Shown: in pieces, positions 6,678-38,548 of the stretch
Numbering within the stretch: position 1 is the stretch's first letter
Layout of the letters: every line of letters begins with the position of its first letter
From: a virus
DNA: 46,361 bases
Reading direction: 5' to 3' (one strand)
Virus record (IMG/VR): IMGVR_UViG_3300025132_000069
Span: 1 to 46,361 of that record
Translations under genes and position numbers: made by a program
The notes under the pieces: model-generated
Told to the model about the DNA's origin: nothing
The model's database searches: none
The model's input: only the letters and a program-made list of their open reading frames with translations

Positions 6678-6761
6678 ATGAACGGAAAAAAAATCGCTAG
6701 TGGTAAAAAAATTACCGCCCATTTTTTGAAAAAGAAGGGGGTAAAACATTTTGCCCTTTGA
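6678..6761 (+). CDS. Possible basic leader peptide
   Basis: 27 residues, MNGKKIASGKKI at the start, rich in lysine. A small hairpin (GGTAA/TTACC) lies inside it. Its stop overlaps the TTG start of the next gene. It could be a leader peptide of the late operon or chance; support is position and composition only. Confidence 0.3.
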   Translation: MNGKKIASGKKITAHFLKKKGVKHFAL

Positions 6762-7389
6762 TATTAGTCCGTCATGGTTTGATTTGTTGAAGTTATCAGG
6801 TGCAGATGGCACAGTTAGCCATCTTAGAGGGTACGGTAAGTTCAGTAATACAAGATTATTCCAAGACATACAATCGCCATCTTACAGAGATGGTTTTCTT
6901 TTTCAGTTAGATGGAGGAACTGCTGTTATTGCTAGACCTCATTTTGAAGCACAAGTAAGAAATAAGAATAGAGTAAGGGATGAAACAAAACATCCTCTGC
7001 ATGAGTTAGTAAAGCAAATAGATAAAGTAGGTCAAAAAGGCCGTAACTTCTATTCCTTCGTTTCAGCAGGTGAGAAGGATGCAAATGGTAGAGGTAATGT
7101 AGATGCTATTGTCCGTTACTCGATTCTAGATGGTGGGGATGTTTACATTGATAGTTCTAGTAATCCTAATCTAAAATTAAGTGATATTATAATTAGGGAT
7201 GGTGGAACAAGTACATATGGAGGGGGTTCACCAATTAACATACCTAAAAAGATAATTCGCTTAGACAGTGTTCATGGTTGGGATGAAAGAAACAAAATAA
7301 AAGATTCTGTATTCATAAACTTGTGGCAACCTATTTGGACAGATAGAGAACAATTAATAGATAGGGAAAAAAGATTAGGTGGTAACTGA
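6751..7389 (+). CDS. Tagged late protein of unknown function
   Basis: 212 residues. I accept the TTG start because a GGGGGT site lies 8 bases upstream and no in-frame ATG precedes the conserved segment. Residues 8-14 (SWFDLLK) carry the W-tag shared by about 20 late proteins, here slightly inside the N-terminus. The rest is a mixed strand/helix domain with glycine-rich stretches; no enzyme motif is recognised. It is the first substantial gene of the late operon and overlaps the next start (TGATG). Confidence 0.7.
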   Translation: MPFDISPSWFDLLKLSGADGTVSHLRGYGKFSNTRLFQDIQSPSYRDGFLFQLDGGTAVIARPHFEAQVRNKNRVRDETKHPLHELVKQIDKVGQKGRNFYSFVSAGEKDANGRGNVDAIVRYSILDGGDVYIDSSSNPNLKLSDIIIRDGGTSTYGGGSPINIPKKIIRLDSVHGWDERNKIKDSVFINLWQPIWTDREQLIDREKRLGGN

Positions 7390-7490
7390 TGCAACCTTTT
7401 CTTGATATCTGTTTTACTTGTGAGTGGTTAAGAATAATAGAGTTTTCAAGTAATGGTTGTTTCTGTTCTTATTGTGGGGATTACATATGA
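7389..7490 (+). CDS. Zinc-ribbon micro-protein
   Basis: 33 residues with CFTC at 8-11 and C-x-C-x-x-C near the end (CFCSYCGDY). The CxYCG-[D/E]-Y ending also occurs in the 26-residue protein at 9376. Start and stop overlap both neighbours (TGATG, ATATGA), which supports translation. Metal binding is inferred. Confidence 0.5.
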   Translation: MQPFLDICFTCEWLRIIEFSSNGCFCSYCGDYI

Positions 7491-7762
7491 AACAGTGGCT
7501 AATTAGAAAGATGATTTCCTTCATGGGTAATACCTATGTTTGGTTAGATAAACAACTTGTTCATCCTACTGGCCCAGTTCTAGGATTAAAGATAGATGAT
7601 GATTTTGCTAATATGTCAAGATATGAGTTATGTTGCCATATAGAAGATAAGTTCGGGTTGGAGAGAGATTCCTTTTGGACATTAGAATCAACTCAGAAGA
7701 TAAGGTTCTGTTCTCAAACTGCAAGGAACATACTTACACCAAAGAAAAGGAGGAAGAAATGA
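7487..7762 (+). CDS. Small late protein
   Basis: 91 residues starting MKQWLIRKM; the ATG at 7487 overlaps the previous stop. It ends in a lysine-arginine cluster (KKRRKK). The MKQWLIRK start is only loosely like the W-tag. Two cysteines are adjacent (CC). Function unknown. Confidence 0.6.
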   Translation: MKQWLIRKMISFMGNTYVWLDKQLVHPTGPVLGLKIDDDFANMSRYELCCHIEDKFGLERDSFWTLESTQKIRFCSQTARNILTPKKRRKK

Positions 7763-8319
7763 CTTTTCTAACTAATGCTATTTCTTTTCCTAAAGATTTG
7801 TTTAGAGCAATAACAGATGATTTTGCAGGTTGGGCTAAAAGACAAGTTGTAGAACTTCCTCATTCTTTTACGGCTTACATGATTCCGTATATTCGTGATG
7901 AAATATATAATCTACAAGATGGTAAAATAGGAAGAAACGGTAAGTTCGCTGAATGGGCTAAATCTAACCCGCCATTAGATGATGAGTCTTTCAGACAGTA
8001 TGTTAGAAGAGGCTACAATAAAGTAATGTTAAGCCCACAAGGATTCAAAGACGCAATGGAATATACTGCTAAAAGACACTATGAGAGATTGTTAAACAAA
8101 AGTAAGTTTGATAGTCTTCATCATAGTGCGACTATGCAGGGTTCAGTAAACGCTGATGATGATTCTTGGTTTAACATACTAAGAATGGGAGGGGCAGTTA
8201 CAACTACCGCAACAGGAACATCAGCATTATTCAACAATAAAACAGGAGGGGGAAAAAGGCGTGGTAAAAAGAAAAAGAAACGTGAAAAAGACCAAAGGCG
8301 TTACTTACAAAACAAGTGA
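7759..8319 (+). CDS. Late protein with internal W-tag
   Basis: 186 residues starting MTFLTNAIS, preceded by AGGAGGAAG. The body (residues 1-125) is helical. After an acidic linker, a W-tag copy (DSWFNILRMGG, residues about 133-143) appears, followed by a low-complexity Thr/Ala stretch and a very basic end. Having the tag near the C-terminus and not at the start shows it is a movable peptide. Overlaps the next gene by 59 bases. Confidence 0.65.
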   Translation: MTFLTNAISFPKDLFRAITDDFAGWAKRQVVELPHSFTAYMIPYIRDEIYNLQDGKIGRNGKFAEWAKSNPPLDDESFRQYVRRGYNKVMLSPQGFKDAMEYTAKRHYERLLNKSKFDSLHHSATMQGSVNADDDSWFNILRMGGAVTTTATGTSALFNNKTGGGKRRGKKKKKREKDQRRYLQNK

Positions 8320-9376
8320 TGGCACTGAGATAACTCTCGAAATTGACCGTAAGGCTTTCAGAGATGCTTACAACATTTGGGTTAGAAAAGCAGAAGGTCT
8401 TGTCGGAGACGAAATTGGAGTCGTAAGTCCTGAAGCATCAGGTAAAAACTTGTTATCATTTATTCAAGACCAAGGGGTTGTAGGAAGAGTAAAAGGAAAA
8501 ATGGGAACTAAAATAAAAGGTCAAGGTGGAGTTCAAATATTCAAAGCCCTACAAACAATATTCAATACTGGTATGGTTTTGGAAAAGCAAAAAGAAGCAT
8601 TGAAAAAATTAGATGAAACAATGACTGCTATTCAAGGAACTAATGCTGACCCTAGAAATATTTGGTTTTCAAATCCAACTAATTGGGATGATGATGATGG
8701 AACAGTATTATCAACTAAGAAAGTTTATGGTCATTATAGAACAGACGCATATGAAATAGTTAGAGAACTCAAAGGTGAAGATGTCCCTGCTAAAGAAGGA
8801 TTTTTTAGTGGTAGTAAAGACACAGCAAAACCTCCAATGTGGCAAGCCCTGTATGGTACTGGGAATGACGCACCGTTCAACTCCCCTAGTTTACATACCA
8901 TAATTAAGCAAGCAATAAAAGACTTAGAAGGTACAGCAACTATTGGAAAAGATAACCCAGTACCCATTGATGGAGTAAAGGCTGCAACGACTGCTCTAAC
9001 AATATCAGTTATTAGACAGATAATTGATTCTGCTTTGGATAAAGGCAGGGGTACAACAAAGTCTTTTCCTGATAAAGCGATTCAAAGTGCAATTCAAAAT
9101 CAGCCTTTTGATATTAGAACTGAAAAGGACTCTAAGGCTGTTAAGACTTTGAAAAGGCTAAATATCCCAAACGACATTGAAGAGTGTTGGTTTAAGATAT
9201 CAAGAAGGCAAGTCAAAAGAATGGCTGTCATTCGTGCTAAAGAAAAAGGAATCCCAGTACATTACAAGATGGCAAGTGGAGATGTAGCAAGAAGTCCACT
9301 CAAGTTTGGCGAAAGACCTGAACCTGATGATGAAAAGAAATCATTCGGTAGTTGGCAAGACATGTTGGTGATATAA
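8261..9376 (+). CDS. Late protein with C-terminal W-tag
   Basis: 371 residues. The GTG start follows GGAGGGGG. The N-terminus is basic (VKRKRNVKKTK); the body is mixed and has no recognised motif. The last residues, GSWQDMLVI, match the W-tag consensus and form the extreme C-terminus. The stop overlaps the ATG of the 26-residue gene at 9376 (TAATG). Confidence 0.7.
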   Translation: MVKRKRNVKKTKGVTYKTSDGTEITLEIDRKAFRDAYNIWVRKAEGLVGDEIGVVSPEASGKNLLSFIQDQGVVGRVKGKMGTKIKGQGGVQIFKALQTIFNTGMVLEKQKEALKKLDETMTAIQGTNADPRNIWFSNPTNWDDDDGTVLSTKKVYGHYRTDAYEIVRELKGEDVPAKEGFFSGSKDTAKPPMWQALYGTGNDAPFNSPSLHTIIKQAIKDLEGTATIGKDNPVPIDGVKAATTALTISVIRQIIDSALDKGRGTTKSFPDKAIQSAIQNQPFDIRTEKDSKAVKTLKRLNIPNDIEECWFKISRRQVKRMAVIRAKEKGIPVHYKMASGDVARSPLKFGERPEPDDEKKSFGSWQDMLVI

Positions 9377-10478: not shown

Positions 10479-11123
10479 ATGAGTTGGATGGATATACTAA
10501 AACAGTTAACGCCTATGCAATCAAGGCTAAAGGATATTGCTAGAAGAGAAGGCATAGAAAAGTTTGGCGACAGAACCATGATAATAAGAATAAACAGGAA
10601 AATGGGGGATGATTTTGAGTTAACTCTAAGGTCAAAACGCACTGGTGAAAATAGACGTTCAGTGTATCAGTTCAAGTTTCGTAACGGTGAGTTGTATATG
10701 GCAGAAGGGCCACATTTAGTTTATACTGCATCAATGGGGCAACAAGGAGATGGAGAAGAAGAACTCTATCGTGCTTTCAAACAATCTATCAATAAATTGT
10801 TTATGCCTGTTGGTGCTTCGCCTCAAATAGATATGAGTCCACTCGCAGTTTCGCAAAGAAAGATAAAAGAAAAATACGATGAAGAAAAAAGAAAAAGAGA
10901 AGAAAAGGAGAGGAGGATAAATCAGCAACAGGGGCGGGAAATGTTCAGTGGTGGTTTTAGGAGAATCGTCAGAAAAAGTTGGCTTGATATCATTAAGAGA
11001 ACTGGTAAATCAAAAGGAACTGGTTTACGAGGTAGAGGATACAAGTCTCCTAAAGATTCAACTTCAAGAAGAAAAGAAGATGAGAAGGAGATTTTAGAGC
11101 CTGAGTTGGAGGAGTTACAATGA
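10479..11123 (+). CDS. Late protein with two W-tags
   Basis: 214 residues. It begins MSWMDILKQL, a perfect tag, and carries a second copy (KSWLDIIKRTGK) near residues 167-178, after a highly charged coiled coil (about residues 120-150). The end is basic and glycine-rich and then acidic. Two tags in one chain suggest either bivalent docking or an ancient fusion of two tagged proteins. Stop and next start overlap (ATGA). Confidence 0.7.
   Translation: MSWMDILKQLTPMQSRLKDIARREGIEKFGDRTMIIRINRKMGDDFELTLRSKRTGENRRSVYQFKFRNGELYMAEGPHLVYTASMGQQGDGEEELYRAFKQSINKLFMPVGASPQIDMSPLAVSQRKIKEKYDEEKRKREEKERRINQQQGREMFSGGFRRIVRKSWLDIIKRTGKSKGTGLRGRGYKSPKDSTSRRKEDEKEILEPELEELQ
10941..11123 (+). CDS. Possible internal start giving a short tagged basic protein
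   Basis: An in-frame ATG at 10941 follows GGGGCGGG by 2-3 bases and would yield a 60-residue product with the second W-tag near its N-terminus. The spacing is short, so this is speculative; it would make that tag N-terminal like most others. Confidence 0.25.
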   Translation: MFSGGFRRIVRKSWLDIIKRTGKSKGTGLRGRGYKSPKDSTSRRKEDEKEILEPELEELQ

Positions 11124-11365
11124 GTTGGATGGGTATTCTCAAAAATACACTTATGCGTGAAATATCACTTGCTATTAATAATGGCATATACGATGAATCA
11201 GATTACACAACTGAAAATGCAGATATTTTTCAAAGATTTCTAAGAAGAAAATATAATGATAGTGATATTGTAGTGGAATACATAGAAGATGATAAAGCGT
11301 TTTACATTGATATTAAGGGAACTACATACAAGTTTGATATTGATGGTGATATTACAGAACAATAA
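11120..11365 (+). CDS. Small tagged late protein
   Basis: 81 residues starting MSWMGILKNT, preceded by GGAGGAG. The tag is followed by an acidic domain with alternating strands (residues 45-80). Function unknown; it is one of a run of three adjacent genes that start with the tag. Confidence 0.65.
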   Translation: MSWMGILKNTLMREISLAINNGIYDESDYTTENADIFQRFLRRKYNDSDIVVEYIEDDKAFYIDIKGTTYKFDIDGDITEQ

Positions 11366-11380: not shown

Positions 11381-11563
11381 ATGAGTTGGGAAGAAGTACT
11401 AAAGAATACAAAAGATAAATGTCCTAAGTGTGGTACACCATACAAAAACCCTTCTTTTAGATTGTGTATGGAAGATAAATGTGGTCATATTCCTGATGAT
11501 ATGATGGCAACCGAAGAAGAACTTACAGAGGCAGAGAAAAAAACAGGTTTTAAGTTTAGGTGA
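11381..11563 (+). CDS. Small tagged zinc-ribbon protein
   Basis: 60 residues starting MSWEEVLKNT, then a zinc ribbon (CPKCG near 14-18; C-x5-C near 29-34). AGGAG lies upstream of the ATG. Tag plus zinc ribbon in so short a protein suggests a modular build: targeting peptide plus a small cargo domain. Confidence 0.65.
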   Translation: MSWEEVLKNTKDKCPKCGTPYKNPSFRLCMEDKCGHIPDDMMATEEELTEAEKKTGFKFR

Positions 11564-11568
11564 TTAAA

Positions 11569-13359
11569 ATGAATTGGACAGAGATTCTGAAAAGGCGAAC
11601 TCTCAGTGAGAAGATTGTCGCTTCTAGAAAGACAGGTAACTTTGATGAGATACTTGCTAATCATGGTAAGTCTCAGATTAGAAGGGCAATCAATAACTTG
11701 GTAGAAGATGGTTTACCTGAGAAAGCGTTTCAACCTCTGTTAGATAAATTAGGTGCTTCAAAAAAAGATGCTGATTATAAAAGACCTAAAGAAATAAAAA
11801 TGTATGAGGATTTCCTTGCAGGTAATCATAAACCTCTAATCACTTTCTTGGAAGAAGGAACTAGTAAATCCCCTAGTAAGGTTAGTAGGCTACTCAAGTG
11901 GGATGAAGAAAATGGTGAGAAGATATTCAATTATATCAAAGACAAACCTGAACTTTATGGGTATGAAACAAATGGTATAAAATTACAATTACCTTTGACT
12001 TTTGATACTAGTAAATTAGAGGGTTTAGAATATGTTAAGTCTAGTAAACTAGTAGTAACACTCCCTGAGTTTATGAGTCCTGAACAGGCTAAACTATTAC
12101 AAGGTGGAAAGCCGGATAAAGAAATCATTAGAACTGTTTTAGGGAAAGTGTTTGGTCTTGACAAGTATAAGGAAGACGATGTTATATCTGCTCAGAAGTT
12201 AGATGTCTCAACTATATCAGATTCGTTCGCAGTAGATTATCTTAAGATGGTTATCAATTCAATAAGAGGGCAAGCAAGAGAACCGTTCATGCCGAACTTA
12301 ACTGATTTTGAAAATGTTAAGAGTATTAGTAGAGCAATGAAAACAATACAGCGAGAGTTCTTTGGGGCGGAAAAGAGTTCAGCCTCGACTAGTAGAATAT
12401 ATCCTGCTTTAGATTACATATTGAATAACGATACTTTGAATCTAGATGTTGGGTTTGTTAAAACTCAAACTAAGCAGTCTCTACAAGAGAAACAATTTAT
12501 GCAGGACATTAGAGATGGTCTTGTAGACAACGCAGAGATTGTTGCATTGTATAATAAGTTTGTAAAGACTGGGATTGCTAGTAAATATCAACGTGAGAAG
12601 GATAAAGCACCAACTCAAACAAAAGGATACGGCCAATTCAAAACCGCAGTCTATAATGCTGAACTAGGGGAAGAGTATGAAAAGTTAGTTTCTAAAACAC
12701 AAGTTAGAAGATATACTCTAAAGACAGATTTGCGAGATGCACTTGTTGATATAATGGAAGGAAGTTCAACAGAGGCTCAACAAAAATTAGTTAGAGCAGA
12801 GTTAGGTCATATATTTGGTTCTAGGGTTAGACGTGCCGTAAAGAGAATGAGAGTTGGTGATGTTGAGTTTGGAGAACCTGAACAGATATTAGCGGCATTA
12901 AAAGAAATGGAAGAGAAAGCAGAAGGAACTGTTTCTATAACTGACCCACAACGTATTCCAACATTACAATTCTTATTCGAGGATATTGATAATGACCCAA
13001 TTGGTAATTATCTAGGTGAAGTAGGAGACACCCGAAAGAAGTTGAAAGACTTCAAAGTATCATCTAAACAATCATTGCAATTTTCAGATTTAATTACTAT
13101 GGTTTTACAACTAGAAGGTTATCTATTTGAAGATAGAACGTTAGAGTTTGCTATTAGAAAACTAAGAAAGAATAGAACTGATGAAGGAATAGAGAAGTTC
13201 AAACAATCATTACAAGAAACTTATTCCAAAGTTCATGAAGAACTGCTAAAGAGAATAAAAGAGAAAATGTCTGAGGTTATGGAAAAACCAATCCTACATA
13301 ATAAAAAGGGAGCAGTACAACCGTACAACTGGATTGCTAGTGAAGGGGGCAGAGCATGA
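11569..13359 (+). CDS. Large tagged late protein
   Basis: 596 residues starting MNWTEILKRR. I take the ATG at 11569 because GGTGA lies 6 bases upstream and it puts the tag at the N-terminus. The rest is highly charged and helical, without recognised motifs. Size and composition resemble internal virion or head proteins, but that is inference. It overlaps the next gene by 4 bases. Confidence 0.7.
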   Translation: MNWTEILKRRTLSEKIVASRKTGNFDEILANHGKSQIRRAINNLVEDGLPEKAFQPLLDKLGASKKDADYKRPKEIKMYEDFLAGNHKPLITFLEEGTSKSPSKVSRLLKWDEENGEKIFNYIKDKPELYGYETNGIKLQLPLTFDTSKLEGLEYVKSSKLVVTLPEFMSPEQAKLLQGGKPDKEIIRTVLGKVFGLDKYKEDDVISAQKLDVSTISDSFAVDYLKMVINSIRGQAREPFMPNLTDFENVKSISRAMKTIQREFFGAEKSSASTSRIYPALDYILNNDTLNLDVGFVKTQTKQSLQEKQFMQDIRDGLVDNAEIVALYNKFVKTGIASKYQREKDKAPTQTKGYGQFKTAVYNAELGEEYEKLVSKTQVRRYTLKTDLRDALVDIMEGSSTEAQQKLVRAELGHIFGSRVRRAVKRMRVGDVEFGEPEQILAALKEMEEKAEGTVSITDPQRIPTLQFLFEDIDNDPIGNYLGEVGDTRKKLKDFKVSSKQSLQFSDLITMVLQLEGYLFEDRTLEFAIRKLRKNRTDEGIEKFKQSLQETYSKVHEELLKRIKEKMSEVMEKPILHNKKGAVQPYNWIASEGGRA

Positions 13360-16095: not shown

Positions 16096-16650
16096 ATGGA
16101 GTTTCAAATAACTAACCCAATGACTGAGGAAGAAGTTGTTAGAGCATTTGCTGAACATGGAATAACTTACAAGACTAGAGCGCAAAGGTATCAAAGATTA
16201 AATGGTACAATGTTTGAAAGAGCAAAGGCGAAGTATTACATTGCATATCATCCAACCGTAAAAGAAGGAAAGCCAGTTGCCGTACAGGGAATTGCCCCTT
16301 ACAAGAATATATTTTTGTTAACTGGCTTAGTAAGCCATGCCAAAGAAACAGGGTTATCTAGAGAACAAACAAAAGGAGCAGGATTGTGGGTATCAAAAAA
16401 AGTAGTTGATTTACACAGTCATAGACCAATAGTAGGAGCAGCAATGCCACAAGGTCTTCCTGTTTTTGTTGGTAGGCAAGGATTTAAAGAAATACAGTTT
16501 GACAATAATGAAGTAGTAAATCAAGAAGATATACCCGAAGATGTTAAACAAGTATTAGAACAATTAGAAAGAGAGCAAAGTCCAACAACAGCCATTAGAA
16601 AATTATACTACAAATCTGCTGTTAGTTGGTTTTACATGATGAGGAAATAA
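16096..16650 (+). CDS. Possible GNAT-type acetyltransferase
   Basis: 184 residues. The middle (PVAVQGIAPYKNIFLLTGLV, then a basic-glycine stretch with KGAGLWVSKK) resembles the strand-then-acetyl-CoA-loop layout of GNAT enzymes that often neighbour terminases, but the canonical Q/R-x-x-G-x-G/A loop is not clean, so I am unsure. The C-terminus reads SWFYMMRK, which could be another C-terminal W-tag variant. It lies just before the large terminase. Confidence 0.45.
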   Translation: MEFQITNPMTEEEVVRAFAEHGITYKTRAQRYQRLNGTMFERAKAKYYIAYHPTVKEGKPVAVQGIAPYKNIFLLTGLVSHAKETGLSREQTKGAGLWVSKKVVDLHSHRPIVGAAMPQGLPVFVGRQGFKEIQFDNNEVVNQEDIPEDVKQVLEQLEREQSPTTAIRKLYYKSAVSWFYMMRK

Positions 16651-16652
16651 AA

Positions 16653-18086
16653 ATGGAACTAGATGAATTAGATTTTATATCCTCTATGGATATGGAAATA
16701 TCTAAAACTTCTTTTCCTTACTTCTTTCAAAATGTTCTAGGTATGATGTTTCCTCCTTATATGCAAGAGTGGTTAGAATCAATGGAAACAACTGATAGAA
16801 CAGTAATTATTTGTTCAAGAGACCACGGAAAATCTGTCTTTATGCACAGTTGGGTAGTGTGGAATCTTGTGTTTCAAGAACCACCATATCAAATGCTTTA
16901 CATTTCTTCTAACCAAAAACAGACTTTAGTACACATGAGAGAAATTGATAGGTATTTTAATCATCCTGCACTTAAGAAATACAAGCCTAGTAGGGGTTGG
17001 GCTATTGGTAATATTCAATTAACAAACGGTAATGCTATTTTAGAACGTTCTGTTGGTTCGCAGATTAGAGGACTTCACCCACAAGAGATTATTATTGACG
17101 ACCCTTTGAAAGAGTTTAGTCTTGCAGGTATTCAACGAGTTACTGATTGGTTCTTTGGAGATATGATACCTACACTTCATCATACATCTAAATTAAGAAT
17201 GATTGGAACACCATTTACCTATACAGATATCTTTGCTCAATTAGAAGAAAATAATGCTTATTCTGTTAAGAAATATCCTTGTCTAGATTCTATGAATGAA
17301 CCACTTTGGCCTGAGCGTTGGGACTACGATGCTCTTATGCAAAGAAAAGCAGAGATAGGTTCTCTTAAGTTTACAAGAGAATATCTCTGTGTTCCTATCT
17401 CTACTGGTACTGCATTGTTCAATCCTGAGTTTATTGCTAAATGTAAAAATAAAGACTATGTTTTGAAACTAGGACATAGAAAGGATAAGGGATACAAGTA
17501 TTATGTTGGAGTTGACCCTGCTATTTCTACTGATGGAGACTACAATGTTATCACAGTGATAGAAGTTGACGATGAGAAAAACAAAACTATTGTTCATGTT
17601 GATAGGGCGAAGAATGTTGACTTCAGAGAAAACATCGAGAAGATACGTTTGATTGGTAGAATATTTGAACCTGAAGAAATACTCTATGAAACCAATACTT
17701 TTGCTAAAGCATTTACACAAGAACTTAGAAACGTTTCAGATTTGAATGTTAGAGATTTTACTACTACTAGGAAAAAGAAACAAGAGATAATTCTAAGTCT
17801 TCAAATGAATATAGAAAATGGTAAGATTAATTTTCCTTATGGAGATAATGCTAGTAGAAATCTTACCAATGCTTTGATTGAAGAACTATCTATGTTCTCA
17901 ATAACTCATAGTGGTAGATTTGAGGGTGTAGGGGCGCATGACGACTTAGTTATGAGTTTAGCATTGGCTGTTGCATGTGCTTCAAAATCACAAGATGTCT
18001 TTATGTTATTAGATGATATGGGAATATTTGATGAACCTAAACCGAGGAATAGGTCTTTAGGCGGAATGATGGGGCTTAACTTCTAG
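16653..18086 (+). CDS. terL: Terminase large subunit (packaging ATPase-nuclease)
   Basis: 477 residues. The motor that pumps DNA into the procapsid through the portal and cuts it. ATPase: Walker A CSRDHGKS (residues 54-61), Walker B IIIDDP (about 145-150), coupling motif RMIGTPF (about 185). Nuclease: GVDPA with the first metal aspartate, then ETNTFAKAF with an acidic residue, then HDDLVMS near the C-terminus. I start at the ATG after GAGGAAAT, not at the overlapping upstream start at 16626. Length and motif order match the family. Confidence 0.95.
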   Translation: MELDELDFISSMDMEISKTSFPYFFQNVLGMMFPPYMQEWLESMETTDRTVIICSRDHGKSVFMHSWVVWNLVFQEPPYQMLYISSNQKQTLVHMREIDRYFNHPALKKYKPSRGWAIGNIQLTNGNAILERSVGSQIRGLHPQEIIIDDPLKEFSLAGIQRVTDWFFGDMIPTLHHTSKLRMIGTPFTYTDIFAQLEENNAYSVKKYPCLDSMNEPLWPERWDYDALMQRKAEIGSLKFTREYLCVPISTGTALFNPEFIAKCKNKDYVLKLGHRKDKGYKYYVGVDPAISTDGDYNVITVIEVDDEKNKTIVHVDRAKNVDFRENIEKIRLIGRIFEPEEILYETNTFAKAFTQELRNVSDLNVRDFTTTRKKKQEIILSLQMNIENGKINFPYGDNASRNLTNALIEELSMFSITHSGRFEGVGAHDDLVMSLALAVACASKSQDVFMLLDDMGIFDEPKPRNRSLGGMMGLNF

Positions 18087-20169: not shown

Positions 20170-20171
20170 TC

Positions 20172-25827: not shown

Positions 25828-25828
25828 T

Positions 25829-26744: not shown

Positions 26745-26834
26745 ATGATAGACTGGAAAATAGTTTTGAGACAAAGAATTAGGGAAGACATGTTAATTGC
26801 TATGAAAGGGATACAAGAAGGTGATTCAAAATGA
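26745..26834 (+). CDS. Micro-protein with tag-like start
   Basis: 29 residues starting MIDWKIVLRQR, which fits the tag pattern (DWKIVLR). A strong GGAGCAGGAG site lies 5 bases upstream and the stop overlaps the next ATG. If real, it is little more than the tag plus a short helix. Confidence 0.5.
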   Translation: MIDWKIVLRQRIREDMLIAMKGIQEGDSK

Positions 26835-27563: not shown

Positions 27564-30158
27564 ATGCCACAAACAGGTTTATCTTTTGAAAAAGAAACCA
27601 ATACAATGACTAAGAAAGTATTGGACTTCTTTGAACGTGTTAGGTATTCCTATCTTTCAGCAAAAGAAAACCCTGATGAATATGGCGATACTTGGAAGAA
27701 AACTGTAAAGACAGTAAGAGAACAGTTTGATACTTTAGATGATTTTACTAGAGAACTTAAAACATATCTAAAGGAAGATACTGCATTTTCTGATGAAGTG
27801 TATAACCCTAAATCAAGACAGGCTAAAGAACTGTATGAAGCAATAAAGGAAATGAGATTCAAATCGGAAGAAGTAAGTGACCCTTTTTCTAAACAATTAG
27901 GAGATAAAGTAATTTCTAGTTTATTGAAAGATGAATCTCTGTTTGCTGCCTTTATTCATTATGCAATGCGTTCTCATGCAAACCCCTTACCCGATAAAGT
28001 ATGGGAGTCAATGGATTTGAAACCTGATGAGATTACTAGAGATTTTATGGGTTTAGACTTAGAACCAAAAGATATCCCACTATACATTATAGAACATTAT
28101 GGGAAGGAAGATGAGGATACTCGCAGAATAGAAAATAAGTTTAAGGGAGCATACAAGTTATTACAAAAATTGTTTGGTTCAGAGTATAGTGAAGATAAGT
28201 GGGATAATTTAGTTGACTTAGACATTGCTAAGAGTGATGAAGAAAAACAATCAATTGATTTCATAGTACCAAATAAACCAATGTACAGGATATTTGAGAT
28301 TGATGACTTAAAAGAAATTAAAGGGCTAACAGGAGAATATATCGTACAAGAAAAGTATGATGGTATGAGAATACAACTTCACAAGTTCAATGGTAAAGTA
28401 ACAATTTATTCATATAATGAAAAGGATATTACATCTAAATGTCCTGAGCAAGTTAAAGCATTAGAAAAGAAATCTTTCAATGATTGTATTTTAGATGGAG
28501 AACTGATGTTATTTATTGATGATGAGCCACTACATAGGGCAGACACAATAGCACACGTTTTCAAGAATAAGAAAGGAGGGGAACTAAGAGCGCATGTATT
28601 CGATATCATGGTTCATGAAGGAAAGAATATTGCTGACGAAACTCTAAGAGAAAGACACAATATTCTTCTTTACCAATATTCTCAACACTCATCACAGGGT
28701 CTAGCATTTCCATCCAAGAAGGATACTAGAATAGCAGATTCAATAAAAGAAGTTGAAGAATATGCTAAAGGAATCATGGAACTACCTGCTTCAGAGGGAG
28801 TAGTAATAAAGGACATAGAATCAACATACTACATTGGTGTAAAGAAAAATCCTAAGTGGATTAAGTGGAAGAAGTTTATTGACTTAGATGTAGTAGTATT
28901 AGATGATAAGAAAACAAAAAGCAACTTACATTCATACACTATGGGAGTTGGGCCAGTAAACGCTGAAACAGCGAGAAACTACAAGACTGTTGAATATGAA
29001 GACAAAGATTACTTAGAAGTAGGTAAGGCTCTTAATACAAAAGAATCAGTAAAGATTGGTAGTATTGTTAGAGTAAAGGTAGATGAAGTTAAGAAAGGAA
29101 AAGACGGTTTCAAACTATTTTCTGCTAAAGTAATAGAAATACCTGAAGTAACTCAATCGGATACTGTTGAAACGTTAGAGCAACTAGCAAGTAAAACAAA
29201 GAAATCTCTTTCTGCAATGGGATACACATTTGGAGAAAAAGTAGGTGGGATGTTTGAAGTCACATCAGGATTACAAAATCCAAGAGGTCAGACGAAAAAG
29301 GTAAAGAAAGGATATTACATTACAGACCACATACATGGAACTGCTGAGATAATACTCAAAGAAGACCTAAATGGATTTACTATTTATGGGTTTGAAGGAG
29401 ATAACCTGATGCAGAAAAATGCTTTACATAACATAGATTTGTGGAAAGAACAAGTTGCTAACATAATGAAAAGTAAACGCTCTATGTTTAGATTAGCAAT
29501 TAGAAATGAAATATTAGAAAGTGGTAGAGATAATCTACCTTTTAAGAAAATACTAGATTTTGTTGTAGATAAACATCAAGGAGCATTTGCAGATTTATTT
29601 GATTCAGATGACGGTAAACTAATGTCATGGATGAAACAACAAGAAGACTTAGTATATTTACACCCAAACAAGTTTACTGCTAGAGAAGACATTTTAGAGA
29701 AAGACGTTGAAGAACTAGAAAAGAAAGATAGCATGGGTAAATACAGTATAGTTCTAAGAGAAGATGATAATGTAGATTTGATTATAGATTATCAAGATGA
29801 GCGAATGGCTTGGACAATAGACATAGAAGGCGATACTGATATCTATGATTTGTTTGGTAAGTCAGGTAAGTACCCTGCTGTTGTTGCTAAGAAAATTGGT
29901 GAGTCAAAGAAAATATTAGACAAAGGCGATATAGAGTTAGGAATACAAAAAGATGGTTATCATGAATATAGGTTAGATGGTGATAAGTTTGAAACTAGAA
30001 TGCATTTCAGAGTAGTACCTTTAGATGAGAAAAAGAGTTGGATAGCATGGACAGGAAAGAAACAAGAAATGTTAGAAGATAAAGAGAACCCAAATAAATG
30101 GAATATCAATGAAGACTCATATGCTGTATTAGGCTTCCCAAGCCCTAAAAAGGACTAA
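27564..30158 (+). CDS. ATP-dependent DNA ligase with long N- and C-terminal extensions
   Basis: 864 residues. It seals nicks in duplex DNA using ATP. Motifs: I EKYDGMR with the AMP-accepting lysine at 264; III DCILDGELM near 310; IIIa HVFDIMVH near 345; IV EGVVIKD near 411-417; V KWIKWKKF near 431; an OB-like region follows to about 530. The first 230 residues are helical and could replace the usual DNA-binding domain. About 330 residues after the OB region are unexplained; they contain strand-rich segments (YHEYRLDGDKF...HFRVVPLDEKKSWIAW) faintly like the LigD phosphoesterase end. It lies inside the head-gene block, which is unusual. Confidence 0.9.
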   Translation: MPQTGLSFEKETNTMTKKVLDFFERVRYSYLSAKENPDEYGDTWKKTVKTVREQFDTLDDFTRELKTYLKEDTAFSDEVYNPKSRQAKELYEAIKEMRFKSEEVSDPFSKQLGDKVISSLLKDESLFAAFIHYAMRSHANPLPDKVWESMDLKPDEITRDFMGLDLEPKDIPLYIIEHYGKEDEDTRRIENKFKGAYKLLQKLFGSEYSEDKWDNLVDLDIAKSDEEKQSIDFIVPNKPMYRIFEIDDLKEIKGLTGEYIVQEKYDGMRIQLHKFNGKVTIYSYNEKDITSKCPEQVKALEKKSFNDCILDGELMLFIDDEPLHRADTIAHVFKNKKGGELRAHVFDIMVHEGKNIADETLRERHNILLYQYSQHSSQGLAFPSKKDTRIADSIKEVEEYAKGIMELPASEGVVIKDIESTYYIGVKKNPKWIKWKKFIDLDVVVLDDKKTKSNLHSYTMGVGPVNAETARNYKTVEYEDKDYLEVGKALNTKESVKIGSIVRVKVDEVKKGKDGFKLFSAKVIEIPEVTQSDTVETLEQLASKTKKSLSAMGYTFGEKVGGMFEVTSGLQNPRGQTKKVKKGYYITDHIHGTAEIILKEDLNGFTIYGFEGDNLMQKNALHNIDLWKEQVANIMKSKRSMFRLAIRNEILESGRDNLPFKKILDFVVDKHQGAFADLFDSDDGKLMSWMKQQEDLVYLHPNKFTAREDILEKDVEELEKKDSMGKYSIVLREDDNVDLIIDYQDERMAWTIDIEGDTDIYDLFGKSGKYPAVVAKKIGESKKILDKGDIELGIQKDGYHEYRLDGDKFETRMHFRVVPLDEKKSWIAWTGKKQEMLEDKENPNKWNINEDSYAVLGFPSPKKD

Positions 30159-30201: not shown

Positions 30202-31407
30202 ATGTTAATGATGGAAGCACCTCTATTAAGAGCAGAATCTTCTCATCAATTTAATATTCTTAAGTCAGATAACTTAGTTATTGGAGGCTATGCTTCAATA
30301 GAGATAGTTGACAAACAAAATGATTTAATCACATTAGAAGCATTAGAAGATGCAGTAGTCAAATACATGTCTGATGAAAAATACAGAAATGTAATGTCCA
30401 ATCATTCTAATGTACAAGTTGGAGAAGTTATAGAGAAATACCGTGATAGTCACGGCGTATTACATAAGACTGGTGTTGACAATGTAGGTTTCTATGTAGT
30501 TATTAAACTACGAGATGATATAGAAAAAGCAAAAGAGATATCAAGAGGTATTAGAAAAGGAACACTTCGTTCCTTTAGTATAGGTGGACAAGCCATCTCA
30601 AAGAAGCAAAAGACTTCTGATGAGTATGGTGAGTACAATGAGATAGACAGGTTGGAACTGCATGAAGTTACAATCTGCGAGAAGGGGATTAACCCCGAAG
30701 CAAAGTTCGACATTTTGAAAATGGAGGAGGAAAAAACAATGAGTGAAAAGTTGGAAAAAGCACTGGAAGAGTTGAATGACTTAATGAAACAAGTCAACAA
30801 CGTTCACAGTGATATTGATGATGCCGTAACGAAGAACGCAGAGTATATGGATACTGATGCAGATGACATGGACATGGATGAAAAAGCAGACATGGAAATG
30901 GAAGAAAAAGCAGACGAAGACATGGAAGAGAAGGCTCTTGATGAAGATGAAACAAGAGAGTTCGAAGCAGGAGAAGAAGTAGTAAGTGGCGGTAAGCCTA
31001 CTGCTGCACCTGCTGCACTTAACGTAGCAAAAGGATTAGAGGGAACTGATTTCTCTACTCTTGATTTGAGCGTTGAGAATGTTGAGAAGGCTTATGCTAA
31101 GTTCAAAGCAGAGAGAATGGAGTCAATGGCTTACGATTCTCTAAGCAAACAGTTTGAAGCAAGATTTGCTGAAGAACTATCCGTAAAAAAGGCTAACGCA
31201 GAAAGAGCAGAATATGATGCTCGTTCTGATGTAGCGGCTCTGAAAACAGAGTTTGCTGAACTACGCAAATCTCTAACAGAGAGAAACTCTGAAATTAGGA
31301 AGGCTCAGGAAGCAGCATTTGCTCTACCTGATGGAATGCCTACAAGCATTGAGGCGGCGGCTGAGATGTCTTGGGAAGATATACACGCATTAACAAGAGG
31401 TGATTAA
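30202..31407 (+). CDS. Capsid maturation protease fused to scaffold
   Basis: 401 residues. Residues about 15-170 resemble the S78 (HK97/herpes assemblin-like) prohead protease: GGYASIEIVD, then NVMSNHSN with a candidate catalytic His68, then RSFSIGGQ with candidate Ser126. Residues 175-385 are an acidic, coiled-coil scaffold with repeated DMD/EEKAD segments. The extreme C-terminus, EMSWEDIHALTRGD, is a W-tag, in the place where scaffolds of HK97-fold viruses usually contact the capsid protein. Followed after 2 bases by the major capsid gene. An internal start at 30739 probably makes free scaffold. Confidence 0.85.
   Translation: MLMMEAPLLRAESSHQFNILKSDNLVIGGYASIEIVDKQNDLITLEALEDAVVKYMSDEKYRNVMSNHSNVQVGEVIEKYRDSHGVLHKTGVDNVGFYVVIKLRDDIEKAKEISRGIRKGTLRSFSIGGQAISKKQKTSDEYGEYNEIDRLELHEVTICEKGINPEAKFDILKMEEEKTMSEKLEKALEELNDLMKQVNNVHSDIDDAVTKNAEYMDTDADDMDMDEKADMEMEEKADEDMEEKALDEDETREFEAGEEVVSGGKPTAAPAALNVAKGLEGTDFSTLDLSVENVEKAYAKFKAERMESMAYDSLSKQFEARFAEELSVKKANAERAEYDARSDVAALKTEFAELRKSLTERNSEIRKAQEAAFALPDGMPTSIEAAAEMSWEDIHALTRGD
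30739..31407 (+). CDS. Nested scaffold protein (internal start)
   Basis: An in-frame ATG at 30739 is preceded by GGAGGAGG (30723-30730) with suitable spacing and would yield a 222-residue scaffold starting MSEKLEKALEEL, exactly at the boundary between protease and scaffold domains, and keeping the C-terminal W-tag. Nested protease/scaffold genes are known from phage lambda (C/Nu3) and herpesviruses (UL26/UL26.5). Confidence 0.6.
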   Translation: MSEKLEKALEELNDLMKQVNNVHSDIDDAVTKNAEYMDTDADDMDMDEKADMEMEEKADEDMEEKALDEDETREFEAGEEVVSGGKPTAAPAALNVAKGLEGTDFSTLDLSVENVEKAYAKFKAERMESMAYDSLSKQFEARFAEELSVKKANAERAEYDARSDVAALKTEFAELRKSLTERNSEIRKAQEAAFALPDGMPTSIEAAAEMSWEDIHALTRGD

Positions 31408-31409: not shown

Positions 31410-32804
31410 GTGTCAGGATACATAAAAACAATGAAAGATTTAGAAGCAGCAACATACGGATATGGCGGAAACTCAGGTAACGCTCTACTCAAAGCGGGTG
31501 GAGTTGTTGGTGGTTTCGGTACACCACACGATGCTTCTTCAAACCCCTTTACTGCTGCGGCAGGACTAGGTGACTTATACAACGTTCTTTATGGACAAAA
31601 AGTTTGGTCTATGTTGAACCAAGAAGTAAACCCTCTTTCTATGATTGCAAAGAGGCCATACACATCTTCAGGTTGGAGAGTTCTAAAGAGCCGACCTATT
31701 GGTGGTAGTGGTTCACAGTTCGCTACTGGTGCTAACGCTGTAACTGCAAACATTTCGTCTGCAAACGCAGCAGCACCAAGAGCAGATACAATTGGTGGTG
31801 TTGGTGAAAACGCAGTTATTGGTACTGATATGGTAGCACTTGCTCCTGAATACACAAAACTGTATGTCAGCCCTAAGACAATTGCACATCTGTTTGAGTT
31901 CTCAGAACTTGGAATGGAACTTGCTGCAATTGATGACGGTGTTGGTGATATTCGTGCTATCGTAAGAGAAGACATGGGTAAACTACACGCTGAAGTACAG
32001 AGCAAGATGTTAGTTATGCCTCTTGAGAAATACAACGAGAACGGTACAACAGGTATTGAGAAGAACTACACTTCACTAATGAAGATAGTTTCATCTGCTG
32101 CTGAATTGGCTATGATGCAAGAAGATAACATCTTCCATAACAGTAAGAACAATGATGGTACATTTGCTCAGATTGCTGATGCTGCAACTATCTACGGTTC
32201 AACAAGAACTGTAACAGTTGGTAATACTGGTAGTAGTGGAAACTTCACATACACCGGAACTGCTTCCTTCTTAGATGCAGAAGTTGATTTCGGTGATGGA
32301 TACCTAGCAGGTGATTGTAGAGTTCTAACTCTAAGCCTACTTAATGACATGATTCGTAGAATCCGTCAGAATGGTGGAAACCCTAAAGTTATCATTACTG
32401 GATATGATACCATACAGAAAATCTCTGACTTGCTACAAGCACAAGAGAGATTCATGGACAGGAAAGAGATTGTTCCTACCCATAATGGTGTTCGTGGTGT
32501 TAAGGGTCAAGAAGTTGGTTTCAGAGTTGCAACATACTATGACATACCAATTATCCCTGCTAAAGATATGCCATCAACAGGTGCAGGAACATCTAACCGT
32601 ATCAGTGACATACTGATTCTAGATACTGACCACTTGTGGCTATCTGTTATGAAACCAACCCAATACTTTGAGGATGGTATCACTAGTGGAAACCCATTCG
32701 GTGTTGGTAAACTTGGAAACCAAGGAATGTACAGAACAATGGCTGAAACCTGTTGTTCTTTCTTCAAGGGTCAAGGTAAGATTACCAACCTAAAGAGTGC
32801 TTAA
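31410..32804 (+). CDS. Major capsid protein (HK97 fold)
   Basis: 464 residues, GTG start with GGTGATTAA upstream. It forms the icosahedral shell. Support: position directly after the protease-scaffold, a flexible Gly/Ala-rich N-terminus, an E-loop-like strand region (residues about 80-150), a central helix (RAIVREDMGKLHAEVQSKM), a P-domain-like segment with VIITGYDTIQKISDLLQAQ, and GVKGQEVGFRVATYYDIPII near the end. Codon use is richer in G and C than its neighbours, as expected for a highly expressed gene. A 19-bp hairpin follows. Confidence 0.88.
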   Translation: MSGYIKTMKDLEAATYGYGGNSGNALLKAGGVVGGFGTPHDASSNPFTAAAGLGDLYNVLYGQKVWSMLNQEVNPLSMIAKRPYTSSGWRVLKSRPIGGSGSQFATGANAVTANISSANAAAPRADTIGGVGENAVIGTDMVALAPEYTKLYVSPKTIAHLFEFSELGMELAAIDDGVGDIRAIVREDMGKLHAEVQSKMLVMPLEKYNENGTTGIEKNYTSLMKIVSSAAELAMMQEDNIFHNSKNNDGTFAQIADAATIYGSTRTVTVGNTGSSGNFTYTGTASFLDAEVDFGDGYLAGDCRVLTLSLLNDMIRRIRQNGGNPKVIITGYDTIQKISDLLQAQERFMDRKEIVPTHNGVRGVKGQEVGFRVATYYDIPIIPAKDMPSTGAGTSNRISDILILDTDHLWLSVMKPTQYFEDGITSGNPFGVGKLGNQGMYRTMAETCCSFFKGQGKITNLKSA

Positions 32805-34264: not shown

Positions 34265-34936
34265 ATGTCAGTAATGGCAGGGTTTGCCATATTGATGGTT
34301 GAAGCCATGAATAAAATGTATCAAAGGTTACACTCAATTCCTTTTGGTGTATATGGTGCAAGTAAAGCAGGTAAAACTACACTACATCATCAACTGAGAA
34401 CTAGAGGAGAAGTACCTGCAATAACAGATAGAACTGTTGGTAGACATAGAGCATCTAGAAAATATGTAAAATTAGATGGGGATGCTCATACAATTAAATC
34501 GGCAGATATAGGTGGGGAGACTGTATTTTGGCAAGAATGGGTAGAAGACATGAGAACTAGACATGTCAAGTATATCATTTTCATGTTTGACGATAGACAT
34601 ATGGATAAGCACTATGATATAGAGCAACAACTATGTTGGACATTTTTAGTAGATACAATTTGTTCTCCTTATTGGAATGTAAAGGGAAAAAGAAAGAAAA
34701 AGAAAATGCACGATTACCCAATTGCAGTTGCTCTTTGGGCTAACAAATATGACTTATGGAAAGATAAATATGACTATGATGGTAAGATGGAAAAGCACCC
34801 TATATTCGAATCGTTTAGAGCAGGTATGCAAAAGTTAAATGATAAAGGAATACCATGTCATAAGTATATTGTAAGTGCTAAATCTGATTCAGAGATGGTA
34901 TATAGGGGAATCCTAACAATGATAAGGGACTACTAA
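34265..34936 (+). CDS. Small Ras/Arf-type GTPase
   Basis: 223 residues with all five G motifs in order: G1 GASKAGKT (31-38), G2 Thr57 in RTVG, G3 DIGG (81-84), G4 NKYD (160-163), G5 SAK (204-206). DxGG at G3 is the Arf/SRP-receptor-beta style; the residue after it is Glu85 where Arf and Ras have the catalytic Gln. A hydrophobic N-terminus (MAGFAILMVEAM) could be a membrane anchor or helix. A Lys-rich insertion lies at 140-148. It acts presumably as a GTP-dependent switch; two membrane-protein genes precede it and a zinc protein follows. Unusual in a tailed-virus head-tail operon. Confidence 0.85.
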   Translation: MSVMAGFAILMVEAMNKMYQRLHSIPFGVYGASKAGKTTLHHQLRTRGEVPAITDRTVGRHRASRKYVKLDGDAHTIKSADIGGETVFWQEWVEDMRTRHVKYIIFMFDDRHMDKHYDIEQQLCWTFLVDTICSPYWNVKGKRKKKKMHDYPIAVALWANKYDLWKDKYDYDGKMEKHPIFESFRAGMQKLNDKGIPCHKYIVSAKSDSEMVYRGILTMIRDY

Positions 34937-34949
34937 GGGAGAGATATAG

Positions 34950-35624: not shown

Positions 35625-36325
35625 TGGGATTATTCGGAACAAGTAATAGTGCGTTATCAACACAAATAGGCGCACAACAACAAACACAATTTAAGGCAAT
35701 GAACAACCTTTTGACACTACAAGAAAACCATGTAGAAGATTTCTTTCAGTATCACGGTGAAGCATTTTTAGGTGCTTTAGAAAAACTAATTGAGGATACA
35801 GTTACAAGAACTGTTAGTCAAATGTTAGTTAAGTTAGAGTTTAATCAAAGTTCTAGTGGAAACTTAGTAATGTCACCTGATGCATTAACTGATTTTACAA
35901 ATATCACTCAAGAAAATATTGATTTAGATTTACAGAATCTATTGGCTACTGCTATCAATAGTGAAGTTGTAATGCAAAGAAGAATGGCTAAACAACAATA
36001 TCTTGAAGCACAAGGATTCTCTGCACCACAACAACAGACTCCTACAACAACCCCACAAATGGGTGTTAATCCTCAAGGGTTAAACCCAAGTCAAATACAA
36101 GGTGGCAATATGGCTACTAATATGAATAACACTATGATGCAACAACAAATGGCTTTGCAAAATGGTAGTGGGTATCCTATTCCTCCAAGTGGCTATGACA
36201 ACATGAATAATCCTTATTGGATAGACCCACAAACAGGACAGCCAACATATACTCCACCTCAAAGTGGATTAGGTTTAGCGTCAGGTTTGGGTAAAGCAGT
36301 TGCATGGGCTAAGTGGCTTGCATAG
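35624..36325 (+). CDS. Gln/Asn/Pro-rich late protein
   Basis: 233 residues. Residues 30-125 are helical; residues 130-215 are low-complexity, rich in Gln, Asn, Met and Pro; the end (GLASGLGKAVAWAKWLA) is a possible amphipathic helix. GGAGG precedes the start. Overlaps the zinc protein by one base. Function unknown. Confidence 0.6.
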   Translation: MGLFGTSNSALSTQIGAQQQTQFKAMNNLLTLQENHVEDFFQYHGEAFLGALEKLIEDTVTRTVSQMLVKLEFNQSSSGNLVMSPDALTDFTNITQENIDLDLQNLLATAINSEVVMQRRMAKQQYLEAQGFSAPQQQTPTTTPQMGVNPQGLNPSQIQGGNMATNMNNTMMQQQMALQNGSGYPIPPSGYDNMNNPYWIDPQTGQPTYTPPQSGLGLASGLGKAVAWAKWLA

Positions 36326-36340
36326 GTTGGGGTCTGATGA

Positions 36341-38548
36341 ATGCCGGATATAAGAGTAAATGATAAGGTAGTAGATAGGCTAAAAACAGGCTTTGTTCTA
36401 ACCCCTGATGACAAAAGAAAAACTTGGCAAGACCTATTAGACGAACAACCTTTATTCAGAAACTTATCGGCATATATATTCAATTCAGTTTCTAATACTT
36501 CTAACATGCAAAAGGTTAGAAGAGTAACAAGAAATCTAATCACACTAGATGATAGTGATTATGAAGGTACTAATCTTTATTTTGATGAAGATGTATATGA
36601 TGGCTATCTCGATTCCTTTTTGTCTAAAATAGAAAAGGCAGAGTTAGCACCTTTAGTAGAAGCATTAGAAGGACTAGGATATGTTACATCTGATGGAAAG
36701 AATCGTGCATTTTCTGAAGGGTTAAGAAAAGACATGAGAGAAAAAAAAATCACATTAGTTGATTTAGGAAATGACTTGAAAGTAAGTCAACTGTTAGGCA
36801 AAAGATACGGTAAAGGATTAGATGATACCGATGTTGATGATAATGTAAAGGATAAGAAATCTGCTGAAAAAAGAAGAGAACAAAAATACAGTAAAAGAAG
36901 TAGTAGACTAGTAGGGGCATTCGATAGAAATGAACCTATACTATACCCATCTACATTAGATGATTTTTTGGAAACAACAGGAGAAGTCATAACTATTGAT
37001 ACGGAAGGGTATTTCAAAAAACTATTCAAAGTTGAAGGCTATGGGGAATTAGGAGAAGACTCTTTTCAATTTAATGCTGTAACCGGAAAAAATCTAGGAG
37101 TTAGAGAACTAGCCCAACAAAAAGAGAAGACTCAAGAAGAAAAGGATGCAGAGGAAGAAGAGGCATATCAACAAGAAATGGATAGAGAAGTTGCTGAAGG
37201 TATGACAATAGATGAAGATGATGATGAAGGTATTACTCAAAAAATGTTGAGAAAGGCTGAAACCGTAGGCTCAAACAATCTCGTTACACTAAAAATGCTC
37301 AAAGATGGTAAGTATGAATTAAATGTATTTGGAAGAAAAAAAGCATTTACTTCAGATGATGCTTTTGATAATAAAGAAGAAGTTTGGGAAGAAATAGAAA
37401 AAATATCTTTACCAAATAAAAAAGAACTTATTGAAATAGTTCGTTCTCAAAGAAAATCACCATTAAAGAATGCAATACTAGGAGCATTAACTCCTAGAGA
37501 AAACAAAATAAGTTTAGGGAAGGTAAAAATTACTTTGAAACTAAAAAAATGGAAAGATGCAGATGATTTCCATGATTGGACTTTGAAAGGTGGTGGAAGA
37601 GATGCAGACAAGAAACTCAATAAAAGTGCTAAAGATATGGCAAAACGCATTATCAAACTAAAAGGAATATTTGACGAACTTGAATCTAATTGGGGTAGTT
37701 ATGTCTATGATAAAAAGGAAGCACCTTTTCCTAGATTCATACAAATATTAAGTGTTAAAAGAAGAAAGGAATTGGTTGGATTTTTCAACCGACTAATTAC
37801 TTCTATTAAGAGTGATGATTATAACATATCAAACCCTACACAAACAGAAACTCGATTTGCCCCAGTAATTAATCCTAAAGATGACAAAATGTATAACATG
37901 TTTATGTATGCTCTTGACAAAAACAAGAAAAGAGTTCAAATAGCAACAGCAGATAGAAAAGAGCCTAAAGTTCGAGCAGTTGCAGGAGAGGAAAAACCAA
38001 TTGGTATAGAAGAAATTGTTTATGATAAAGATGGTAATCCTAAGAAAGATAAAGAGGGTAAAGTTATTACTGAAGTTAAAGAATACTATCCTGCTTTTGG
38101 TAATCATGATATGTTTATTAAAAAGGTACAAGAAATATTAAGCAATATAAAAAGTACAGATTACAAAGAATCAGTGAATATTATTCCATTGTTACAATAC
38201 GCAGGAGACACAGAAGAGTTGGTAGGCATCATAAGAGAAGAATTGATGGATAGTCAAGAATGGAAAAAAGAAGGCGATACAGAATACAAAGTTTCTGATA
38301 GTGAAGGAATGCCAATATTAACTTTCAAAAGGGATGTAGTAATTACTACACAAGTAGACACTAATATTGGTAGAAGAGTTTCTAGAGGTAAAGATAGATT
38401 TCGAACAGGAAGATTTGCTGAGTCAGGAGTAGGGGCTAGTGAGAAACAAATAGAGGATAGAAAAAGTGGGGCTGATGCTAATGATGCAGATGAAATAATA
38501 TTAGTATATAGCGAATATGAAGGATTAAAGGAAATGATAGAAAGGTGA
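36341..38548 (+). CDS. Large charged late protein with internal tag-like segment
   Basis: 735 residues. Near the N-terminus, KTWQDLLDEQ (about residues 28-37) fits the W-tag without its final Lys. The rest is charged and helical with an acidic region near 265-300 and basic stretches elsewhere. No enzyme motif. It sits between the GTPase cluster and the head-tail adaptor; an internal head or connector-associated role is possible. Confidence 0.65.
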   Translation: MPDIRVNDKVVDRLKTGFVLTPDDKRKTWQDLLDEQPLFRNLSAYIFNSVSNTSNMQKVRRVTRNLITLDDSDYEGTNLYFDEDVYDGYLDSFLSKIEKAELAPLVEALEGLGYVTSDGKNRAFSEGLRKDMREKKITLVDLGNDLKVSQLLGKRYGKGLDDTDVDDNVKDKKSAEKRREQKYSKRSSRLVGAFDRNEPILYPSTLDDFLETTGEVITIDTEGYFKKLFKVEGYGELGEDSFQFNAVTGKNLGVRELAQQKEKTQEEKDAEEEEAYQQEMDREVAEGMTIDEDDDEGITQKMLRKAETVGSNNLVTLKMLKDGKYELNVFGRKKAFTSDDAFDNKEEVWEEIEKISLPNKKELIEIVRSQRKSPLKNAILGALTPRENKISLGKVKITLKLKKWKDADDFHDWTLKGGGRDADKKLNKSAKDMAKRIIKLKGIFDELESNWGSYVYDKKEAPFPRFIQILSVKRRKELVGFFNRLITSIKSDDYNISNPTQTETRFAPVINPKDDKMYNMFMYALDKNKKRVQIATADRKEPKVRAVAGEEKPIGIEEIVYDKDGNPKKDKEGKVITEVKEYYPAFGNHDMFIKKVQEILSNIKSTDYKESVNIIPLLQYAGDTEELVGIIREELMDSQEWKKEGDTEYKVSDSEGMPILTFKRDVVITTQVDTNIGRRVSRGKDRFRTGRFAESGVGASEKQIEDRKSGADANDADEIILVYSEYEGLKEMIER

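Follow-up and report, generated by a model that had tools for sequence, protein, structure and literature searches.

Late proteins encoded in a viral DNA stretch of 46,361 nt (positions 1-46,361 of IMG/VR record IMGVR_UViG_3300025132_000069; hereafter the window) share a short Trp-containing peptide, which we call the tag. Its consensus is (M)-[S/T]-W-x-[D/N/E]-[I/V]-[L/I]-K, and it forms the first or last residues of about 20 unrelated window proteins. The analysis confirmed that the tag is a portable peptide on unrelated bodies. We consider it reasonably probable that it is a docking, or address, peptide that mimics the shell-binding C-terminal end of the viral scaffold and brings cargo into the procapsid.

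The tag is real by comparison with chance expectation. Across 81 related loci, which are not independent samples, a slightly widened pattern gave 165 matches, as compared to 6.0 in shuffled proteins; 126 of the matches directly follow a start codon and 26 fall within the last 25 residues. A DNA pattern for the N-terminal form identified 111 sites in 23 of 23 related records, on a single strand in each record, and the reversed pattern used as a control gave no matches in those records. The N-terminal DNA pattern was also present in 24 of 24 records of a second, more distant set, which itself had been fetched with a tag pattern. About 4-14 N-terminal copies were counted per genome. The information content is 1.5-7 bits per tag position, with 3.3 bits at the Lys, and since it drops below 0.5 bits directly after this residue, the unit comprises about 8 residues.

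Clustering of the attached bodies gave about 85 tag-bearing families without recognisable relationship, a number obtained by single linkage and including families that may prove related. Pfam and PHROG scans of the 85 tagged bodies detected no shared or informative family. Charged residues are more frequent in tagged proteins (median 35% versus 27%) and Cys is less frequent, and isoelectric points show no bias.

Portability and window copies of the tag

The portability claimed in the initial annotation is also apparent from homologous proteins, in which the same bodies carry different tags and tags occur at fusion junctions. Members of the family of 23852 mostly open with MTFMDVLKR, and with MTWTSILKR in L006 and L009. 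In the 19834 family, the tag is N-terminal in L006 and lies mid-protein in L028, where another module is fused in front. The window protein encoded at 25793-26701 combines two genes, each of which has a tag when separate (L049:606, L005:4584), and it retains the first tag alone; L048:3541 is a second fusion that has lost its inner tag. Both tags are kept in L049:1250-1996, which joins two tagged genes that are separate elsewhere, and in the fused window gene at 10479. The piece of the 7675 protein that holds an internal copy exists free-standing in relative G017 as MNWFDQLKMTGAVTTT. Because the fusion partners stand alone and tagged elsewhere, internal copies are former N-termini. Loss of a tag is frequent, but not universal, on chains that keep another one.

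The tag also appears separate from the protein fold in the one tagged family that was modeled. AlphaFold2 predicted a helical body with a predicted local distance difference test score (pLDDT) of 80-96 and a loose tag with a pLDDT of about 52. A search of one good cargo model against the PDB gave no significant fold match.

The window copies are given below by coordinates and strand. Genes were called by a simple longest open reading frame (ORF) rule, and some starts are wrong.

6772-6792, +: SWFDLLK near the N-terminus of ORF 6751-7389; G004 keeps SWFDVLK
8164-8184, +: SWFNILR, internal in ORF 7675-8319, a fused former N-terminus with a free-standing G017 homologue
9350-9373, +: SWQDMLVI, C-terminal in ORF 8261-9376; homologues at about 28% identity keep a C-terminal Trp tag (NWKDILKREMIC, DWRTVMKV, DWREIIKAV)
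10479-10502, +: MSWMDILK, N-terminal, ORF 10479-11123
10977-10997, +: SWLDIIK, second and internal tag of ORF 10479-11123, originating from gene fusion
11120-11143, +: MSWMGILK, N-terminal, ORF 11120-11365
11381-11404, +: MSWEEVLK, N-terminal, small zinc-ribbon-like protein, ORF 11381-11563
11569-11592, +: MNWTEILK, N-terminal, protein of about 596 residues (to 13359); MNWTEILK in G004, MSWQDVLK in G018
16624-16647, +: SWFYMMRK, probable C-terminal tag of ORF 16096-16650; related C-termini in relatives
19420-19443, +: MNWFETIK, N-terminal, basic protein, ORF 19420-19680
19677-19700, +: MSWFEVLK, N-terminal, basic protein, ORF 19677-19877
19870-19896, +: VTEWFELLK, N-terminal (GTG start), basic protein (to 20169); N-terminal in L006, mid-protein in the L028 fusion
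21904-21927, +: MSWKDILK, N-terminal, ORF 21904-22251
22248-22271, +: MSWEDIIK, N-terminal, ORF 22248-22601
22603-22629, +: MGWFNILLK, variant N-terminal copy (protein to 23343); no homologues for comparison
23340-23363, +: MSWQDILK, N-terminal, ORF 23340-23609
23852-23875, +: MTFMGVLK, degenerate N-terminal copy of a 559-residue protein; homologous bodies as described above
25528-25551, +: MSWFDVVK, N-terminal, ORF 25528-25827
25829-25852, +: MTWFNTLR, N-terminal, fused 290-residue protein (to 26701), inner-junction tag lost
26745-26771, +: MIDWKIVLR, weak N-terminal variant
27017-27058, +: MDWEDIHKLVKDME, C-terminal tag of ORF 26831-27061; C-terminal motif kept across the family

All 22 positions listed in the initial annotation are present in the sequence. 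The pattern proposed there occurs in exact form at 10 sites (6772, 10482, 10977, 11384, 11572, 19680, 21907, 22251, 23343 and 27020). Variant copies are SWMGILK (11120), NWFETIK (19420), EWFELLK (19870), SWFDVVK (25528), TWFNTLR (25829) and SWFNILR (8164), and further variants are GWFNILLK (22603, one additional residue), TFMGVLK (23852, without the Trp), DWKIVLR (26745), SWQDMLVI (9350) and SWEDIHALTR (31369). The copies at 26745 and 22603 have no informative homologues, and their status as tags is unproven. A likely copy missing from the list is the C-terminus of ORF 16096, SWFYMMRK, with NWFYIMRK, NNWWMTLK and SSWWAAIK in relatives. The supposed internal copy in 36341 was rejected as an ordinary conserved fold segment: TWQDLLDEQPLFR sits in a conserved stretch that runs past the motif, and its Trp can be lost (TVDDLFTDDELFR). 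The description of the tag as position-independent was too strong, since nearly all copies are N-terminal, C-terminal ones occur in three families, and internal ones trace to fusions.

Small basic modules (KVKGGYKWG..., HPALKRAGVSGF..., CYRKVRSRYKKWPSAYASGALVQCRKVGA...) reappear next to the portal gene in varying fusion arrangements, at 19420-20169 in the window and in L026, L028, L032, L056, L059 and L065.

Restriction to late genes of one capsid lineage

Tags are confined to late genes and a single capsid lineage. Of the 241 genes lying between TerL-16 kb and the major capsid protein (MCP) gene in eight near-complete genomes, 53 start with a tag, compared to 1 of the 697 genes elsewhere (Fisher p=2e-32, for an interval delimited with the data already in view). 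The predicted enrichment at termini in late genes of related viruses was thereby borne out, and its absence, which the initial annotation had named as grounds for refutation, is strongly contradicted. No tag was present on portal, TerL, MCP or tape measure proteins. Some more distant relatives (G049, G025) also carry tags downstream of the MCP gene. The window genes that frame this region are the following.

16626-18086: TerL
20163-21833: portal
27564-30158: ATP-dependent ligase
30202-31407, +: prohead protease (Peptidase_S78) fused to scaffold; Pfam PF04586, E=1.4e-8; PHROG head maturation protease
31366-31404, +: scaffold C-terminal motif MSWEDIHALTRGD; a C-terminal Trp motif occurs in all ~110 distinct homologues
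31410-32804, +: MCP (SU10_MCP), without tag, proposed tag receptor; Pfam PF17236, E=4e-9; PHROG major head protein
42584-44017: tape measure

The scaffold gene, placed at 30739 in the initial annotation, has its correct span at 30202-31407. Just after the capsid gene, among head-tail genes, 34265-34936 encodes a small GTPase-like protein (SRPRB/Arf-like; weak Pfam matches below cut-off).

The sole tagged gene outside the late block is G018:3253-3597 (in the orientation used), on the opposite strand and near the contig end; its body resembles a late-block gene of L049.

A scan of 2.9 million IMG/VR contigs with a tag pattern alone supports the link to one capsid lineage. Among the matches listed, 50 records were examined, of which 38 encode a relative of the window MCP and 5 more a relative of the window TerL. 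The other 7 comprise three records with several tags, which may be fragments of the same group, and four with a single match. The tag was not found in the late genes read of HVTV-1 and of the Methanomassiliicoccales virus vir335. We found no published description of such a tag in the open-access literature, in which the main magrovirus genomics papers were only partly covered.

The scaffold C-terminus and the proposed role of the tag

The protease-scaffold carries a counterpart of the tag at its C-terminal end. All ~110 distinct homologues (sets of 43, 18 and 51, with some overlap) have [STDEN]-W-x-[DEQ], then a variable residue and after it usually H or N, at most about 20 residues from the C-terminus. 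A conserved C-terminal segment, as looked for in a coat-binding scaffold end, is therefore present. The end reads MSWEDIHALTRGD or MSWGDIHNLARK near the window. Further away it reads MDWSDIHKMVGG, which agrees with the tag up to and including the Lys and also with the C-terminal sequence of the 26831 family, and relatives at about 51-66% capsid identity often have MDWSDIHKM, also matching the tag including the Lys. The claim that the scaffold ends with the tag holds in that a related C-terminal Trp motif is near-universal, but only its first half is shared with the N-terminal form. MSWEDILKN and EMSWEDIHALTRGD represent the forms. Since they are alike in the first half and unlike in the second, we assign scaffold end and N-terminal tag to one motif with moderate confidence.

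On the docking reading, the protease-scaffold C-terminus would carry an ancestral or parallel form of the tag. We assume that this end attaches to the inside of the capsid shell or to the scaffold lattice, in the manner of P22. The tag may fold as a short helix that is N-capped by Ser/Thr/Asp and lines up Trp, Ile and Leu along one side. By displaying the surface that the scaffold end displays, cargo would enter assembly together with the scaffold and become trapped inside the prohead; later it would either remain in the virion or enter the host by ejection. The initial annotation had proposed docking to the capsid protein or scaffold lattice on observed properties that stand (portable, terminal, in late genes, with a scaffold counterpart), whereas the receptor and its binding, the helix, packaging and any later cleavage are parts that we infer.

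Several observations weigh against docking. The agreement of the window scaffold end with the tag is limited to the first half, W-x-D-I; H follows in place of L, and in close relatives of the window the Lys is usually missing. Scored with a matrix from N-terminal tags, the scaffold end takes rank 18 of the 160 Trp windows that the window contains and a lower rank in relatives, whose ends score well above the median and below true tags. Fusions with both tags exist, which means that sufficiency of one tag per chain is no rule, and a clear cleavage motif downstream of tags was not found. An AlphaFold2 model of the L018 scaffold end read through into the MCP (stop as Gly, 34-row alignment) reached a mean pLDDT of 50 and gave no docking information, showing two short helices at low confidence (H57-61, H65-74). 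No covariation of scaffold-end with cargo-tag variants across lineages was evident on inspection by eye.

Alternatively, the tag might bring proteins together without packaging them, by binding another late-assembly hub; examples would be the small protein of the 26831 type, the complex of portal and terminase, a host factor or a viral factory. In support, the 26831 family carries a C-terminal version of the motif and could act as an adaptor, and the second half of the motif is not the same in N-terminal tags as at the scaffold end. The strict restriction to the head-gene block and one capsid lineage, and the occurrence of the motif on the scaffold itself in every homologue, speak against such a hub, which we consider unlikely.

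A variant of the docking reading is that, strictly as in T4, the tag is a propeptide which the prohead protease cuts off once the cargo has been packaged. In favour, the scaffold is fused to a prohead protease of the S78 type, and [hydrophobic]-x-E occurs downstream of tags 178 times versus 142 +/- 9 in shuffles. The corresponding excess of [LI]-x-E is weak (71 versus 59 +/- 7), helical bodies could yield such an excess, and no cleavage site is conserved at any fixed distance downstream of tags. Simple N-terminal trimming also suits the C-terminal and internal copies poorly, and we consider this variant doubtful.

A codon bias bears on the proposal that late genes use the motif (ATGAGTTGG) chiefly as a signal in the mRNA or for translation start. 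The Ser of N-terminal tags is encoded by AGT in 121 of 125 cases. The same codon is used at 142 of 260 other Ser in second-codon position (p=4e-20) and at 9 of 20 Ser in tags that are not N-terminal. Part of this bias is explained by missing tetranucleotides. AGCT and GATC are both absent from the window, where about 235 and 322 are expected (both strands), and from relatives G004, G006, G013, G014 and G017-G020, where 400-935 are expected. CTGG/CCAG is depleted in these genomes, and CGCG, GTAC or ACGT is also at zero in some of them. The pattern is total avoidance of restriction-type sites, differing between lineages. The absence of AGCT forbids AGC-TGG and the depletion of CTGG disfavours TCC-TGG, which leaves over a residual preference for AGT over TCA, TCG and TCT. 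A start signal is nevertheless very improbable: copies occur at C-termini and inside proteins, synonymous codons vary at Asp, Ile and Leu, Thr, Asn or Asp can replace Ser, and Trp, Ile, Leu and Lys are strongly conserved as amino acids. The initial annotation was right in placing selection on the peptide, yet N-terminal copies show an added bias in the Ser codon.

S/T-x-x-D/E is a common helix N-cap, but that the tag is a part of each protein's fold or a chance capping pattern is hardly credible given the ~27-fold excess over shuffled proteins, the unrelated bodies and the low tag pLDDT beside a well-predicted body, which contradict it for the set as a whole and leave it applicable to 36341 alone.

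If docking is correct, about 85 families of unknown function become predicted virion-internal proteins of a major uncultured ocean virus group, from sequence alone, and a direct prediction follows for the cargo that infecting archaeal tailed viruses release into cells. The strategy known from T4 internal proteins would gain a second, much larger case, cargo loading as engineered with P22 and encapsulins would have its counterpart in nature, and loaded capsids could be built with an 8-residue label. A wider and more tentative proposal, which we hold to be possible and somewhat short of probable, is that a whole order of abundant marine archaeal viruses loads an open-ended, fast-changing set of virion proteins by one scaffold-derived address label. 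The head would then be a delivery container whose contents are readable from the genome.

Virus identity and comparison with known packaging systems

The viruses fit the published description of Magrovirales (viruses of Poseidoniales) in genome size, layout and PolB. Published members have genomes of about 90-110 kb with PolB and with morphogenesis and replication modules on opposite strands (PMC12999244). Here, PolB was found in 12 of 12 relatives, on the strand opposite the MCP gene where compared, and the longest records are 84-103 kb, with completeness not certified. The hosts of this ocean virus family are probably archaea. The nearest deposited capsids, at 24.6% identity, are those of HVTV-1-type haloviruses (Druskaviridae), from which the present group differs by the tag, as judged from the late genes read of HVTV-1. 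The sole matches in genome collections were contigs of one marine bin labelled Maricaulis, which are probably viral contigs binned with that bin.

Two irregularities were noted among the related records. In G030, G033, G039, G060 and G067 the capsid gene match contains one in-frame TGA, which could be readthrough, recoding, an intron-like insert or an error. G045 (IMGVR_UViG_3300021958_000021; 184733 bases) has two copies of the capsid gene region, at 161908-163248 and 70457-71803, and is probably two viral genomes joined or co-assembled.

Three known packaging systems resemble the tag. In T4, a highly diverse set of internal proteins is packaged through a short N-terminal sequence, the capsid-targeting sequence (CTS), whose conservation is the sole shared part (PMC3012670; PMC5694885). 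Like the CTS, the tag is a short N-terminal peptide common to unrelated, fast-evolving proteins of a virus with a prohead protease. In contrast, the tag has 7-8 residues and also occurs at C-termini and on the scaffold, and the two are likened by features, not by sequence comparison. Encapsulins load unrelated cargos, encoded beside an HK97-type shell gene, through a C- or N-terminal peptide, about 10 residues long, which occupies a hydrophobic pocket on the lumenal side of the shell (PMC7355545). The tag, too, is a terminal peptide on unrelated cargo encoded near a shell gene. The shell itself is no encapsulin, the MCP being of the SU10_MCP family in a tailed virus with scaffold, portal, TerL and S78 protease; the cargos are many more and mostly N-terminally tagged, and the motif is partly common to the scaffold. 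The tag would resemble both T4 CTS and encapsulin peptides in its working, a likeness from which we claim no relationship. In well-studied tailed phages the scaffold attaches to the shell by its C-terminus. In P22, two C-terminal scaffold helices contact the coat N-arm, and loss of 11 residues abolishes binding (PMC9965877), while cargo joined to the scaffold is packaged (PMC9962691). The scaffold C-terminus as shell-binding end would be common to both systems. Different from P22, evolution here appears to use a minimal peptide on dozens of proteins, a parallel for which we do not claim homology.

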